The position numbers were made by a program, and so were the translations under genes. The notes beneath the pieces were generated by a model. That model had not been told where the DNA came from and did no database searches. It worked only from the letters and a program-made list of their open reading frames with translations. From assembly GCF_003258705.1 (NCBI RefSeq), contig NZ_CP029480.1, forward strand, positions 1,860,001 through 1,924,000: a stretch of 64,000 bases of DNA. The letters run 5' to 3'. This DNA is from Arcticibacterium luteifluviistationis. GTDB lineage: Bacteria > Bacteroidota > Bacteroidia > Cytophagales > Spirosomataceae. Shown one piece after another: positions 4,793 through 13,973 of the stretch. Each line of letters begins with the position of its first letter. Positions within the stretch are counted from its first letter, which is position 1.

Positions 4793-5908
4793 TTAATGGT
4801 TTAATAATTCTAAAACCTTCTTTTCGCTTGGAATATTGTGGCTACTCCATTTTCCTTTTACAACACCATCTTTCAACAAAATAAGAACTGAATTTGTTCT
4901 CGCCATTGCTTTTAAAACCTTCTCATCCGTATTATATAGTTCATCAGGGATAAGGTTGTCTTCGTATTTGGTTTTGATATCTGAGAGGATTTGCGAGGTT
5001 AGGAGCATACTTTCTATGTTAGCCTTTCCTAGTTCTTCTGAAAAAGTTTTAATAGCTGCTAATTCCGAATTCGTTGTTTTTTCAAATTTCTTGACAATTA
5101 TAAAGAGTTTGTTTCCTTTCAATGACTCCTCTGTCATATCATTGCCCTCTATGTCACTTACGCCAAAGTCTGTAATTTTTGGGCTTAGTAAACTTTCGTT
5201 AAGTATTTCAGACGAAAGGTATTTGTATTTCGTGGTATCCATCAAATACTCCATTGAACTCATTTCCTCATCATTGATTTTGTCTAGGAAGGTATACTCT
5301 ATTTCAGGCTTAACTCCCGTAGGTTTCATTTGTTCAGGGAGACTTAAACCTTTAGCATAAGGTAAAAAATCAAGGAGAGGAAGGTATCTTTTGGCATAAA
5401 TGCCAATGCCGAAAGCAAGTAAAGTGGCAATTAAAGTAGCTTGCTTTGCAAAAGAGGTTTCTTTAAAAGTTTTCCTATAAAAGAAAATGATAAGAATAAC
5501 CGCCAAGCTTATGATGTCCTTATAAAAAGAATGCCAAGGTTTTAATTTTAAGAAATCGCCAAAACACCCACAGTCTGTTACTTTATTAAAAAAAGCTGAG
5601 TAGAAAGTGAGAAAAGTAAAGAAAGTCATTAGAAGAAGCACAATCCAAGAGGTCTTCTTCATTTTAAACGAAAAAAGTAAGGCTACGCCCAATATCAATT
5701 CAGAAGCACAGAAAATTAAAGACAGGAGTTGGCTTTGATGAGCAAAGAATTCAAAAAGTCCTGAGAAGGCCGGTAGGTCTACCGCAAAAACTTCAAAATA
5801 TTCCTGGAGTTTAAGTCCTGTACCATATGGGTCCACCACTTTTACAAAGCCAGAAAAGATAAATTCTAACCCAACAAGTACCCTAGCAATATTTGCAACT
5901 AATTTCAT
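4793..5908 (-). CDS. DoxX/MauE-type membrane protein (BT_3928 family)
   Basis: A 371-residue protein. The N-terminal half (about 1-165) has four or five hydrophobic segments with a DoxX-like start (VGLEFIFSGFVKVVDPYGTG) and a cysteine pair in VTDCGCFGDF, as in MauE/DoxX redox-related membrane proteins. The C-terminal half (about 190-371) is soluble and resembles a thioredoxin-like fold without a CxxC motif. The family is a recognised Bacteroidota group commonly found next to DUF1599 and folP, as here. Its ATG overlaps the stop of the upstream DUF1599 gene by 4 bases, so the two are translationally coupled. A role in quinone- or thiol-linked redox chemistry is inferred from DoxX/MauE relatives and is not shown by the sequence. 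Confidence 0.8.
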   Translation of the reverse strand: MKLVANIARVLVGLEFIFSGFVKVVDPYGTGLKLQEYFEVFAVDLPAFSGLFEFFAHQSQLLSLIFCASELILGVALLFSFKMKKTSWIVLLLMTFFTFLTFYSAFFNKVTDCGCFGDFLKLKPWHSFYKDIISLAVILIIFFYRKTFKETSFAKQATLIATLLAFGIGIYAKRYLPLLDFLPYAKGLSLPEQMKPTGVKPEIEYTFLDKINDEEMSSMEYLMDTTKYKYLSSEILNESLLSPKITDFGVSDIEGNDMTEESLKGNKLFIIVKKFEKTTNSELAAIKTFSEELGKANIESMLLTSQILSDIKTKYEDNLIPDELYNTDEKVLKAMARTNSVLILLKDGVVKGKWSSHNIPSEKKVLELLNH

Positions 5909-6441
5909 GCTTCACTTTTTTGATTTTGCAGATGTATTAAACAGAAAACCGCATAATTAATAATATCTTGATATCCAGCTTTTATCCCTTCAGAGATAAG
6001 AGTTTTTCCTTCATTATCTTCAATCTGCTTTATGCGTAAAAGCTTCATCAAAATAATGTCCGTCATGCTGCTTACTCGCATATTTCTCCAAGCCTCGCCG
6101 TAGTCATGATTTTTGTTGAATAACAATTCCATAACTTCTTCTATCTGGTTTTGGTAAGCTTCTGGCAGGTCAGTACTCTGGTCTCCCTTTTCATCTATCA
6201 AAATTAAGGCCATTACACAGTAATTAATGATACCTATAAACTCAGAAACCTGCCCTTCATCTACTTTCGAGAAGCCGTTTTCTTGTAATGTTCTAATTCT
6301 TTGGGCTTTGATGAAAATTTGGTCTGTAATAGAAGGTAATCTTAAGATTCTCCAAGATGTACCGTAATCAATATTTTTTTTGGTGAAAATATCGCGACAG
6401 TTACTAATAATGCCTTTGTATTCGTTTTGCGTTTCTTGCAT
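5905..6441 (-). CDS. DUF1599 domain protein (nucleotide modification associated domain 1)
   Basis: A 178-residue soluble protein with two copies of the DUF1599 repeat. The first spans about 15-85 (KKNIDYGTSWRILRLPSITDQI) and the second about 105-170 (NKNHDYGEAWRNMRVSSMTDII). Each has the signature DYG-x-x-WR followed by S(I/M)TD. The biochemical function is not established; the Pfam name reflects its presence in phage nucleotide-modification contexts. It overlaps the DoxX-type gene by 4 bases and is divergent from folP, an arrangement typical of this phylum. Confidence 0.85.
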   Translation of the reverse strand: MQETQNEYKGIISNCRDIFTKKNIDYGTSWRILRLPSITDQIFIKAQRIRTLQENGFSKVDEGQVSEFIGIINYCVMALILIDEKGDQSTDLPEAYQNQIEEVMELLFNKNHDYGEAWRNMRVSSMTDIILMKLLRIKQIEDNEGKTLISEGIKAGYQDIINYAVFCLIHLQNQKSEA

Positions 6442-9595: not shown

Positions 9596-9627
9596 AAAAG
9601 GTCGACCAAATGGTCGACCTTTTTTTA
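9596..9627 (+). terminator. Rho-independent terminator after the FN3 protein gene
   Basis: AGGTCGACC / GGTCGACCT perfect stem with a 4-base loop, preceded by A-rich sequence and followed by seven T. Confidence 0.85.
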
Positions 9628-9632
9628 TGCCC

Positions 9633-9640
9633 TATTTTTG
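9633..9640 (+). promoter_or_regulatory. Candidate -7 box for the thiolase/ligase unit
   Basis: TATTTTTG matches TAnnTTTG and ends 8 bases before the ATG at 9649, directly behind the preceding terminator. If it is used, the transcript would start within a few bases of the start codon. No clear -33 element is visible. Confidence 0.35.
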
Positions 9641-9648
9641 TGTTAGTT

Positions 9649-10770
9649 ATGGCAAATAATGTATTCATTTATGATTGTTTAAGAGTTCCTTCTGGTAAAA
9701 AAGGAGGACTTTATAAAAAAGTCTTGTGTGAAAATCTGACTAGTTTTCTTGTAAATCAATTGCTGGAAAGAAATCAAAAAGCAAAGTCTATAGTAACCGA
9801 ACTTGTTGTAGCTAATAGCATTGGCACTATGGGGAACATGGCTCGATATGCGGCTTTAGGTAGTACTTTATATTCTTCAGTGCTTAGTTCTACTGTCGAC
9901 CTTCAATGTGGCGGTACATATCAAGCCATTAAGCATGGCGAAGCCCTAATAGCGGCTAATAGGAGTCAAGCTATTATAGCTGGTGGCATGGAGAGCAATT
10001 CTTTAATGCCAACTAGGATTTATAATAAAAATGACCCTCGTTATACAGAAAATAGTCATATAGGTGTAGCCAGTTTTTCTCCGAATGGAAACATTGATTT
10101 AAAGCAGGCAGCTGAGAATTTAGCTTTGAAGTATGGTTTAAGTAAAAAACAAATGCATTTATGGACTTTGAATAGTCATAAAAAGGCTAGCCAATTTGTA
10201 GGTAGTGATTTGTACCTTAAGCATATCTTGGCATATGAAGGAAATACTACAGGCGAACAGCTAATTAGAAAGGATTTGACCTTTGAAAGTTTAGAGCGTT
10301 TACAGTCAAAGAACCTTATTGATAGAACCAACTCTGCAGACTATCATGATGGTGCAGGACTTGTTCTTTTGGGTGGAGAAAATTCGTTTTCTTCAAAGCC
10401 GCTAGCCCAAATAGTAGATATAGAGATTATAGGAATCAAGCCTAATGTCGCTCCCGAAGGATGTATTCTAGGGGCAGAGTCATTATTGAGGAAGAATGGT
10501 CTGAGTATTGATGATATTGACATCTTTGAGATTAATGAGTCATTTGCTTGTAAGCCTTTGGCATTTATGAAGTATTTTAATCTGGATGAAGGAGTGATAA
10601 ATGTTCTAGGAGGGAATTTGGCATTCGGACATCCTTTTGCAGCCTCAGGAGCTTTGAATCTTATTAATCTTTTATGTGCTTTGAAACTTAGCGGGAAGAA
10701 GTATGGTTTAGTTTCTGCTGGAGCTGCGGGTGGCTTTGGCTGTGCTATTTTAATTGAGAACATCGATTGA
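9649..10770 (+). CDS. Thiolase-family enzyme with an atypical C-terminal active-site motif
   Basis: A 373-residue thiolase-fold protein, slightly short for the family (about 390). The acylated Cys is conserved in TVDLQCGGTYQA (Cys87); NESFA (Asn296) and the His of FGHPFAASGA (His328) are also present. The usual second catalytic cysteine, in the C-terminal C-x-GGG-x-G motif, is replaced: GLVSAGAAGGFGCAI aligns without gaps and puts Gly358 at that place. The frame is open for 13 codons further upstream, but that part encodes the preceding terminator hairpin, so the ATG giving MANNVFIYDCLRVPSG is chosen. Its stop overlaps the start of an AMP-dependent ligase gene. Normal thiolytic or Claisen chemistry is therefore uncertain; it may be a specialised condensing enzyme. 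The substrate is unknown. Confidence 0.82.
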   Translation: MANNVFIYDCLRVPSGKKGGLYKKVLCENLTSFLVNQLLERNQKAKSIVTELVVANSIGTMGNMARYAALGSTLYSSVLSSTVDLQCGGTYQAIKHGEALIAANRSQAIIAGGMESNSLMPTRIYNKNDPRYTENSHIGVASFSPNGNIDLKQAAENLALKYGLSKKQMHLWTLNSHKKASQFVGSDLYLKHILAYEGNTTGEQLIRKDLTFESLERLQSKNLIDRTNSADYHDGAGLVLLGGENSFSSKPLAQIVDIEIIGIKPNVAPEGCILGAESLLRKNGLSIDDIDIFEINESFACKPLAFMKYFNLDEGVINVLGGNLAFGHPFAASGALNLINLLCALKLSGKKYGLVSAGAAGGFGCAILIENID

Positions 10771-12029
10771 TAACAAAGAGAATACTTAATAATGCAAAAC
10801 TGTTTCCAAATAAAGACGCTGTTGTCTTTAACGGGACTACTGTCTCTTATGGGGACTTAGCCAAAAGTATTCATGGGAAAGTATTAAACGGAAATGATTC
10901 TAGTGGAATAGGTTTTGTTTTTAACACTAATCCTGTTGAAACTTTATGTAGCGTTTTAGCTTCAAATCTTCTAAAAAGACCAGTTCTAGTTGTTCCCGAA
11001 GACTTTCCAAAGAGAAATCTTGATAAGCATACCGAAACAGGAATTCCTTCTGACGCATTTATTGGGATTCTTACATCAGGAAGTTCAGGTAAACCAAAGA
11101 CTGTTTGGAAAAGTAATGACAATTGGGAATTAGCCTTCAAACATCAAAGCGAGGTTTTTAGTGTAGGAAAAGAAGACAAGGTTTTCGTATTAGATGCATT
11201 GTCATATTCGGCAAATTTGAATGCCGCTTTACATATTCTTTGGGAAGGTGGTACTTTAGTTTTGGGCCAATTGAAAAAGGCGAACAAGTGGCAGCAGATG
11301 CTTGAAGAAAGAGAAGTGACATCTTGCTTTTTAGTTCCGTCGCATTGTCAATTGCTCCTTCAAGATGGATTTGTCAATGAAAATATAAAATCTTTAGTAA
11401 CCGCAGGTGAAAAGCTTCCTGCTAAAATGGCTAAAGAACTTTTAGAACATTTCCCGAAAACTATACTTACAGAGTATTATGGTGCTGCCGAGTTAGGGCA
11501 TATTACTTATCATCAAAACGCTGATATTTATAATTTCCCACATTCTGTAGGGAAACCTTTTCCTCAGGTTAGGGTAGAGGTTAAGGACGATAAAGTTACG
11601 GTTTCAAGTCCTTTTGTTTCTTCGGAATATAAAGAGAATGGTACCGTAGATGATTTAGGTTACTTTGATAAGGGAGATAGGCTTATTTTGAAAGGTAGAT
11701 CAGGCCGTATGTTTAATAGACGTGCCCTGAATATTTATGCTCAAGAAATTGAGAATATAGCCCTAGAGTTTGATTCTGTAGAAAAAGCGGTTCTGGTAGA
11801 AAGCGAAATAAATCAACGCCTAAGTTTATATTTCACTACCAATAGTAAGGCTTTAGGAAATGATGAAGAGGAACTTGCAGCATTTTTACGTGAGTGTTTG
11901 CCAAGTTCTAAAATGCCAAGTTTTGTAAAAGAGCTTAAGGAAATTCCGCATTCAAATGCCGGAAAGGTTGATTTCCGTGCATTGAGTAAAATGTCTGGTG
12001 AAGATAAAATCATGAACATCGCTTCATAG
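10767..12029 (+). CDS. AMP-binding (acyl-CoA synthetase-like) enzyme, short form
   Basis: A 420-residue member of the ANL adenylating family. Core motifs in order: A3 LTSGSSGKPKT (102-112), A5 EYYGAAELG (236-244), A7-like DDLGYFDKGDRLILKGRS (295-312), and the A10 lysine in SNAGKVDF (Lys400). Only about 100 residues precede A3, against 150 or more in typical acyl-CoA synthetases, so the N-terminal subdomain is reduced. Translation probably starts at TTG (10767), whose bases overlap the TGA stop of the thiolase gene (TTGA), a translationally coupled arrangement. The pairing suggests that it activates an acid whose acyl-CoA is used by the thiolase-like enzyme. MenE-like or fatty-acid ligases are the closest general types; the substrate is unknown. 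Confidence 0.82.
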   Translation: MITKRILNNAKLFPNKDAVVFNGTTVSYGDLAKSIHGKVLNGNDSSGIGFVFNTNPVETLCSVLASNLLKRPVLVVPEDFPKRNLDKHTETGIPSDAFIGILTSGSSGKPKTVWKSNDNWELAFKHQSEVFSVGKEDKVFVLDALSYSANLNAALHILWEGGTLVLGQLKKANKWQQMLEEREVTSCFLVPSHCQLLLQDGFVNENIKSLVTAGEKLPAKMAKELLEHFPKTILTEYYGAAELGHITYHQNADIYNFPHSVGKPFPQVRVEVKDDKVTVSSPFVSSEYKENGTVDDLGYFDKGDRLILKGRSGRMFNRRALNIYAQEIENIALEFDSVEKAVLVESEINQRLSLYFTTNSKALGNDEEELAAFLRECLPSSKMPSFVKELKEIPHSNAGKVDFRALSKMSGEDKIMNIAS

Positions 12030-12056: not shown

Positions 12057-13973
12057 ATGCTTCGTATTATACTTATTATGACTCTAGTGAGTCTACACTC
12101 CTTTGGGCAAGATAGCCTACAACTTGAACTATCAGAAATAAAGGTTTCGGCTAATATTAACCAATCGGAAATTATTAAAACAGCTAGAAATGTTTCGGTG
12201 ATTTCTGCCGAAGAAATAGCTAAGTCTCCTACGAAAACGATTGATGGTATTTTACAATATGCCCTTAATGTGGATGTAAGGTCACGTTCACCGTTTGGTG
12301 TACAGGCTGATATTAGCATTAGAGGAGGGCATTTTGACCAAACCTTGGTAATGATAGATGGAGTTAAAATGAATGACCCGCAAACGGGGCACCATACGCT
12401 TAATTTGCCTATTCCGGTAGAGCTAATTGAAAGAATAGAGGTTTTACAAGGAGGAGCCTCTAGAGTTTACGGTCCAAATGCATTTTCTGGTTTGATTAAT
12501 ATAATAACCAAAACTTCTGCCAAAGGAGCTTCAAGTGTTGGAATAGCTGGCGGTGAAAATGGACTTTATAAACTGGACGGAACGTTGGCTTTGCAGGGCA
12601 AAAAAACGAATAGCTTTGTTTCTTTATCAAAAGTGCATTCTGATGGGTATTCTTATAATACGGCTTTTGACAGATCTTCTATTTACGCTAAAACAACAAT
12701 TGAGAGCAAAAAAGGTTTTTTGACATTACAAGGAGGAATCATGGACAATGATTTTGGGGCATCAAACTTTTATCATCCTAAGTTTTATGATCAATATGAA
12801 GAAACGGGGAGTAGATTTTTGGCTTTATCTAAGACGCATAACTTTTCGAATAAACTATCTGGTACGCTGATAGCGTCAATCAGAAATCATAAAGACTTAT
12901 ACGATTTTAACAATTATATCGATAGTCCTCAAACCTATAGTAGTGTTAATTTTCATAAATCTAATGTAATTGACTTAGAATGGAAAATGAGGTATTTGTC
13001 TGATTTTGGTGCGAGTTCAGTGGGAGTAGAATGGCGTCAAGAAGGAATTATAAGTAATAGACTTGGTGACGAGGTCTCGGAGCCAAAGGAAGTTAAAGGG
13101 TATTCTGGCATTTTTTATGATAAAGCAAAGATTAGACAAAATTTTAGTGCTTATCTGGAGCAGCAGAAAACTTTTGGGAAGTTGATGCTCTCTGGCGGAG
13201 CTTTGTTGAATTTTAATTCTCAATTTGGAACAAAGCTTTATCCAGGTTTGGATGCTTCTTATGCGGTGTCAACTGGCTTATCAGTATATGGTACGGTCAA
13301 TAAATCCTTACGATTTCCAACCTTTACAGAGATGTATTTAAATACGTCAACAGTAAAGGCTGACCCAAATTTATTGCCAGAAAAGGCTATTAATTATGAA
13401 GTGGGTGTTAAGAGATTTACTTCCTGGACTAATTTTACGGCATCAGTATTTTATAAACAAACCACAGATGCGATAGATAAAATTAAAAGACCAAATTTGG
13501 AAGTGCCTACCATGGAGAATATTGATAATATAAATATGGCAGGACTAGAGTTGGTTGGTCAATTTGACTTAGCTAAGAAGTTAAACAATTCTAATTTCTG
13601 GTTTCAGAAGCTTCAATTTAATTATGCTTATTTAGTGGCAGACAGAAAAGAAATTGATTTTCAGTCTTTTTATACACTTAACTTTTTAAAGCATAAATTT
13701 GGTGTAGGAACCTTTTATAGGCTTACAAAAGATGTATCGGCCTCTGTTTTTTATACTTATAAGCTACGCAAAGGAAATTTTCAATTAGATGGAGAATCAC
13801 CTTTACAAAACTATAAACCTGTTCATTTGGTTGATGTAAGAGTAGACTATACACGAAAGCGTTTTAAGGTTTTTGTAGATGCAAATAACCTTCTTAACTA
13901 CGAATACTTTGAGTTTGGTTTTGTGGAACAGCCAAGAAGATGGTTAAGTGGTGGAATTAAATTGACTTTTTGA
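12057..13973 (+). CDS. TonB-dependent outer-membrane receptor
   Basis: A 638-residue receptor. A signal peptide (about 1-17, ending SFGQ) is followed by the TonB-box region and plug domain (about 40-150, with ADISIRGGHFDQTLVMIDG and VLQGGASRVYGPNAFSGLINI) and a 22-strand-type barrel to the C-terminal aromatic residue (GGIKLTF). There is no N-terminal carboxypeptidase-like domain, so it resembles the BtuB/CirA type and not SusC. It begins 27 bases after the ligase gene in the same direction and may be its operon partner. Transport substrate unknown; no riboswitch is visible upstream. Confidence 0.9.
   Translation: MLRIILIMTLVSLHSFGQDSLQLELSEIKVSANINQSEIIKTARNVSVISAEEIAKSPTKTIDGILQYALNVDVRSRSPFGVQADISIRGGHFDQTLVMIDGVKMNDPQTGHHTLNLPIPVELIERIEVLQGGASRVYGPNAFSGLINIITKTSAKGASSVGIAGGENGLYKLDGTLALQGKKTNSFVSLSKVHSDGYSYNTAFDRSSIYAKTTIESKKGFLTLQGGIMDNDFGASNFYHPKFYDQYEETGSRFLALSKTHNFSNKLSGTLIASIRNHKDLYDFNNYIDSPQTYSSVNFHKSNVIDLEWKMRYLSDFGASSVGVEWRQEGIISNRLGDEVSEPKEVKGYSGIFYDKAKIRQNFSAYLEQQKTFGKLMLSGGALLNFNSQFGTKLYPGLDASYAVSTGLSVYGTVNKSLRFPTFTEMYLNTSTVKADPNLLPEKAINYEVGVKRFTSWTNFTASVFYKQTTDAIDKIKRPNLEVPTMENIDNINMAGLELVGQFDLAKKLNNSNFWFQKLQFNYAYLVADRKEIDFQSFYTLNFLKHKFGVGTFYRLTKDVSASVFYTYKLRKGNFQLDGESPLQNYKPVHLVDVRVDYTRKRFKVFVDANNLLNYEYFEFGFVEQPRRWLSGGIKLTF

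Follow-up and report, generated by a model that had tools for sequence, protein, structure and literature searches.

The window, a stretch of 64,000 nucleotides from the genome of Arcticibacterium luteifluviistationis, encodes a thiolase-fold protein which lacks the second catalytic cysteine of thiolases. This loss is a fixed trait of the protein family and neither a slip nor chance, as the cysteine is missing in all 21 distinct orthologues (Gly in 13, Pro in seven and Ser in one). The gene is followed by genes for an AMP-forming acyl ligase and a TonB-dependent receptor, and this order is constant in 21 of 21 genomes. We propose with moderate confidence that the three genes represent a biotin-acquisition cassette of bacteria apparently unable to make biotin. 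The initial annotation had suggested a dedicated condensing or acyl-transfer module with an unspecified substrate; the constant gene order and the fixed cysteine loss uphold an acyl-activating and acyl-transfer module, to which the receptor is now added, while its substrate may be narrowed to biotin or a carboxylic acid bearing the biotin ring, owing to the resemblance of the pair to YhfS/YhfT, the BioY neighbours of the latter and the lack of detectable bioA and bioB in the genomes that carry the cassette.

Gene layout and catalytic residues

The likeliest start of the thiolase gene is the ATG at 9649, and its stop codon occupies positions 10768-10770. The ORF coordinates bear out the initial observations that the ligase begins with a TTG codon (10767) inside the thiolase stop (TTGA) and that the receptor lies 27 bases downstream of the ligase (Table 1). 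Pfam profiles identified both thiolase domains (PF00108 and PF02803) in the first protein, an AMP-binding domain in the second, for which the C-terminal ligase domain scored slightly under the cut-off, and Plug and beta-barrel domains in the receptor. The -7 promoter element of Bacteroidota has the consensus TAnnTTTG, and as the similar element TATTTTTG is located 8 bases before the thiolase ATG, the cassette is probably transcribed from a promoter of its own, its first gene being leaderless or preceded by a very short leader. By eye, a comparable arrangement of hairpin and -7 element was seen upstream of the orthologous cassettes L024, L025 and L131, and hairpins precede the cassette in some orthologues.

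Table 1. Positions in the window of the cassette genes, the upstream elements and the codons discussed in the text
Feature	Position	Strand	Basis
Terminator-like hairpin with T run at the end of the upstream T9SS/Fn3 gene	9596..9626	+	read from sequence
TATTTTTG, fits -7 promoter element TAnnTTTG	9633..9640	+	sequence; consensus
Thiolase-fold ORF, 373 aa, without second catalytic Cys, YhfS-like	9649..10770	+	ORF, profiles, alignments, predicted structure
Codon of nucleophile Cys87	9907..9909	+	Cys in 21/21 distinct members
Codon of Asn296	10534..10536	+	Asn in 19/21; C or S in two
Codon of Ser298	10540-10542	+	Ser in 21/21 distinct members
Codon of His328, GHP motif	10630..10632	+	His in 21/21
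Codon of Gly358, place of the general acid/base Cys	10720..10722	+	alignments
AMP-forming acyl ligase, 420 aa, YhfT-like, internally shortened	10767..12029	+	ORF, profiles, alignment
Third cassette gene, TonB-dependent receptor with weak resemblance to BtuB	12057..13973	+	ORF (ATG 12057), profiles, orthologue census

The ligase had been thought to lack about 50 or more N-terminal residues, which proved incorrect, as its N-terminus falls within about two residues of those of the three YhfT-like ligases displayed from an alignment of six. The shortening is internal and affects mainly the stretch from the N-terminus to the P-loop, a second gap occurring later in the sequence, such that the protein measures 420 residues as compared to 481-497 for six YhfT ORFs (61-77 residues shorter). 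The ligase should be active, since it retains the P-loop, the Y-G-x-x-E motif and the late Gly-Lys. Its structure model, built with two sequences, was too poor for use (pLDDT 47).

Gly358 of the thiolase-fold protein had been assigned to the place of the general acid/base cysteine, and in three HMMER alignments to solved thiolases it indeed falls on the Cys of the C-x-GGG-x-G motif. Cys87, Asn296 and His328, which had been read as retained, are located in the right motifs and are conserved in 21, 19 and 21 of the 21 distinct members, respectively; these correspond to 22 rows of the family, from which L125 was dropped for all counts as it duplicates the thiolase of L031. The two departures at Asn296 occur in L131 (Cys) and L134 (Ser), indicating that this oxyanion-hole residue is replaceable within the family. 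The second cysteine is kept in all 79 other thiolases among the best of the matches listed (76 by alignment and three by reading the frame on), and is retained by the two other thiolases of the organism's own genome. Cys365, named beforehand as a residue that might occupy the catalytic position, fails as a replacement, as Cys is present there in just one of the 21 members. Cys301 was rejected as a substitute (Cys in two of 21), and a dead enzyme was set aside as Cys87 and His328 are invariant. Cys87 is the sole cysteine conserved in more than 60% of the family members.

The AlphaFold2 model of the protein (pLDDT 91.5, pTM 0.92) predicts a complete T1 thiolase fold, and a structure comparison of the model returned 3ss6 in the first of many tied rows (Z 53.6, rmsd 1.8, 364 residues aligned). 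The protein narrowly passes the cut-off of the general thiolase profile TIGR01930 (245.3 as against 240.55 bits). It resembles T1 thiolases such as those of Z. ramigera and B. anthracis (3ss6) in its whole predicted fold and in Cys87, Asn296 and His328, but differs from them in the absence of the general acid/base Cys. A thiolase fold with altered catalytic motifs has also been described for the type 1 thiolase-like protein MsTLP1; however, according to the part of that report available, TLP1 has lost the CXS, GHP and CXG motifs, whereas the protein in the window has lost the CXG Cys only (PMC3406046).

Relation to YhfS and YhfT

The best specific profile for the thiolase-fold protein is PRK06690 (YhfS), albeit by a small margin and with a score (186.6-187.6 bits) far below the curated cut-off of 498; the same profile scores the two Cys-bearing thiolases of the own genome higher (263.4 and 224.7 as compared to 186.6 bits), which speaks against kinship with YhfS. 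The ligase is matched best by PRK07638 (YhfT), at 154.6 bits as compared to 97.1 for the next profile, and is far under the curated cut-off. For comparison, six YhfS genes that score over the cut-off were collected from 34 genomes of a Bacillus family. All six encode Gly at the position of the second Cys, within the motif G-S-[GA]-GG-x-G, and the motif A-x-F-[S/A]-P is present in these six and in 19 of the 21 members of the window family, while it is found in none of the 79 other thiolases listed. A BioY-like gene, YhfT and YhfS lie in a row at all six loci, with YhfS directly last; BioY was identified by Pfam in both loci scanned, and the remaining four are 52-64% identical to one of those. 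At one of the six (L187, positions 5293-6055, minus strand) two dehydratase genes of the MaoC/FAS1 type come after YhfS.

The two systems are alike in the adjacency of a thiolase-fold and an AMP-ligase gene, the Gly at the second Cys, the A-x-F-[S/A]-P motif and the ligase profile; they differ in that the order of the pair is reversed, and in that the Bacillus-family loci carry a BioY-like gene where the window has a TonB receptor. YhfS/YhfT are likely kin of the window pair by these sequence features. In a FastTree phylogeny of 108 rows, still including the duplicate L125, the two Cys-less groups split from the rest with a support of 0.48, and in IQ-TREE runs on 59 selected rows the same split received support values of 93 (quick run) and 95/93 (careful run), all of these trees being unrooted. 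The 59 rows leave out eight of the 22 family rows (L125, L119, L120, L122, L123, L127, L128 and L134, the last of which is a divergent row and not a copy), the lactic-acid-bacterium rows L044, L076, L092 and L095, and every second of the remaining other thiolases, and both data sets are without L021, one of the own genome's two ordinary thiolases. The simplest reading of these trees would be a single loss of the Cys before the two Cys-less groups separated.

YhfS and YhfT have been associated with biotin through their regulation. In the accessible part of a study on S. aureus, the yhfS-yhfT promoter is described as repressed by BirA and biotin (PMC6391492), and an excerpt of a review lists bioY, yhfS and yhfT as BirA-repressed in both B. 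subtilis and S. aureus (PMC11089781). As summarized in a section of another review, YhfT forms acyl-adenylates and no CoA thioesters, the acyl group being passed to ACP, and in B. subtilis YhfT has also been tied to the 3-hydroxy fatty acid supply for surfactin (PMC10988940). YhfS itself appears as a putative acetyl-CoA acetyltransferase in the same excerpt of the S. aureus study (PMC6391492), and elsewhere, in literature likewise available in part, as an HMG-CoA synthase. For the protein labelled in PMC3686787, the sequence is thiolase-like, and its lack of the Cys speaks in favour of re-annotation. None of the literature excerpts retrieved by our search describes the Cys loss or an enzymatic role in biotin metabolism for YhfS/YhfT.

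Distribution of the cassette and of biotin genes

With the first five orthologues as queries and a cut-off of E <=1e-90, thiolase matches were obtained in at least 21 of 222 genomes of the bacterial family to which the organism belongs, representing at least 7 of 36 genera; these census counts are lower bounds. Wider samples yielded at least one of 395 genomes for the phylum, this being the organism's own genome only among the candidates scored (alignment query, E <=1e-70), and at least three of 291 for the order (single-protein query, E <=1e-60). One further record, a Siphonobacter MAG, came from a named collection, and its thiolase is identical to one of the 21. The receptor has orthologues in at least 23 of the 222 family genomes at E <=1e-120, comprising the 21 cassette genomes and two more: in one of these (G419) the contig ends inside the ligase, and in the other (G273) the receptor is without a thiolase-ligase pair beside it. 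By eye, this last receptor (L171, 8615-10525) is abutted by WbsX-like and other glycosyltransferase-like genes. The receptor's best NCBIfam match is the vitamin B12 receptor BtuB (TIGR01779), with 132.9 bits, and the cut-off of that profile (599.7) was not reached. Upstream of the cassette, a T9SS/Fn3 protein is encoded in the window and, by eye, the same kind of protein at L024 and L025, while other genomes have glycosyltransferases, an ECF sigma factor with its anti-sigma factor, or a sensor kinase; as these upstream genes vary, the three genes can be regarded as a unit.

Within the family, bioB was detected in 133 of 222 genomes (E <=1e-80) and bioA in 109 of 222 (E <=1e-100), and neither in any of the 21 cassette genomes; neither gene was found in the two additional receptor genomes either. 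The exclusion of bioB and cassette gives a Fisher p of 9e-10 by genome, in which relatedness overstates the independence of the counts; by genus it amounts to 0 of 7 as compared to 20 of the 29 others (p 0.0014), where genera may again be related and the counts not independent. The cassette is not required by every bioB-less genome, since neither bioB nor the receptor was found in 66 of the 222 genomes. The 222 family genomes yielded no BioY, and passage of the substrate across the inner membrane is therefore unexplained. Scanning 30 proteins encoded around the cassette in eight genomes, including four receptors, revealed no recognisable biotin gene. A search upstream of the window thiolase for a BirA-box-like site gave none, the best stretch having 7 mismatches to the operator of Bacillus, from which that of the host may differ in kind. 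The same scan upstream of the Bacillus-family BioY genes was clear in three of six (0, 1 and 0 of 200 shuffles scoring as well), weaker in two (32 and 30 of 200), and returned no site in one (194 of 200).

The link to biotin is one that we infer from genomic evidence, and a module for uptake and activation of fatty acids or other carboxylic acids that is unrelated to biotin is a possible, though in our view unlikely, alternative, in which the lack of bioA and bioB would reflect the shared ancestry of the cassette genera. It is favoured by the generality of the AMP-ligase and thiolase families, by the activity of YhfT in the supply of 3-hydroxy fatty acids for surfactin as given in the review section cited above (PMC10988940), and by the presence of the cassette in few genera (at least 7 of 36). 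On the other hand, cassette and bioB are disjoint by genus (p 0.0014), and the likely kin of the pair lie behind BioY-like genes at six of six loci and are, in the accessible part of the S. aureus study, published as BirA targets (PMC6391492).

Proposed route and alternatives

In the thiolase mechanism the nucleophilic Cys becomes acylated. The handling of the enolate proton falls to the second Cys, as described in the part of PMC3406046 available, and as only this residue is lost the protein would remain a former of acyl-enzyme, from which we infer that its chemistry is altered. In the reading that we favour, a biotin-acquisition cassette, the TonB receptor would move a carboxylic acid with the biotin ring (biotin itself or a shortened vitamer) through the outer membrane, and the YhfT-like ligase would adenylate the carboxylate of the imported acid. 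The acyl group of the acyl-AMP may then be handed to Cys87 of the YhfS-like protein and from there to an acceptor, which could be CoA, ACP or another molecule. This path is proposed because the protein appears to remain an acyl-enzyme former and because YhfT, in the review section cited above, yields acyl-adenylates and no CoA thioesters. With the loss of the Cys that handles the enolate proton, the YhfS-like protein would be expected to carry out no ordinary Claisen condensation or thiolysis, but acyl transfer or, at most, a decarboxylative condensation.

Decarboxylative condensation of the type performed by ketoacyl synthases needs no enolate-forming base. A condensing enzyme of this kind, in which the acyl group on Cys87 would be extended with malonyl-CoA or malonyl-ACP, is improbable in our estimate. 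The retention of the nucleophile and the oxyanion-hole residues alongside the loss of the second Cys agrees with such a role, as do the two dehydratase genes after YhfS at L187; however, dehydratases occur at that one of six loci only, the protein is predicted to fold like an ordinary T1 thiolase, and a reductase was not recognised among the scanned neighbours. A more elaborate version, to which we give a still smaller chance, is biotin repair, whereby imported biotin catabolites with a shortened side chain, of the bisnorbiotin type, would be activated on the ligase, loaded on Cys87, extended by two carbons decarboxylatively and finished by fatty-acid enzymes or MaoC-type dehydratases such as those at L187.

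Supply of pimelate or a pimeloyl thioester for biotin synthesis is highly improbable: yhfS-yhfT of S. aureus is under BirA alongside the bio operon, according to the excerpt of PMC6391492, yet neither bioB nor bioA was found in any of the 21 cassette genomes, where pimeloyl would be a dead end in the known route. As both genes were undetected, it is more likely that the imported acid comes with the biotin ring in place.

An ordinary thiolase whose lost Cys is replaced by another residue, such as Ser298, seems just as hard to sustain. In its favour, all 21 members have Ser298 as compared to Ala in all 79 other thiolases listed, this place carries Cys in SCP2-type thiolases, and the TIGR01930 cut-off is passed; however, serine is a poor base and YhfS, which is also Cys-less, has Ala at this position in six of six sequences. 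Ser298 could serve in tuning the active site.

In the literature excerpts available, yhfS-yhfT is known as a BirA target, and apart from the part played by YhfT in surfactin the functions given are putative only. The findings presented here count against the pimelate idea and against the automatic annotation of such proteins as 'acetyl-CoA acetyltransferase'. Biotin repair, if true, would represent an undescribed route of biotin salvage common to Firmicutes and Bacteroidota. The absence of the thiolase base from YhfS, combined with the occurrence of a Bacteroidota counterpart only in genomes without detected bioA or bioB, turns the role of the pair into a testable question, which is sharpened to which acid is activated and to which recipient Cys87 passes it on.
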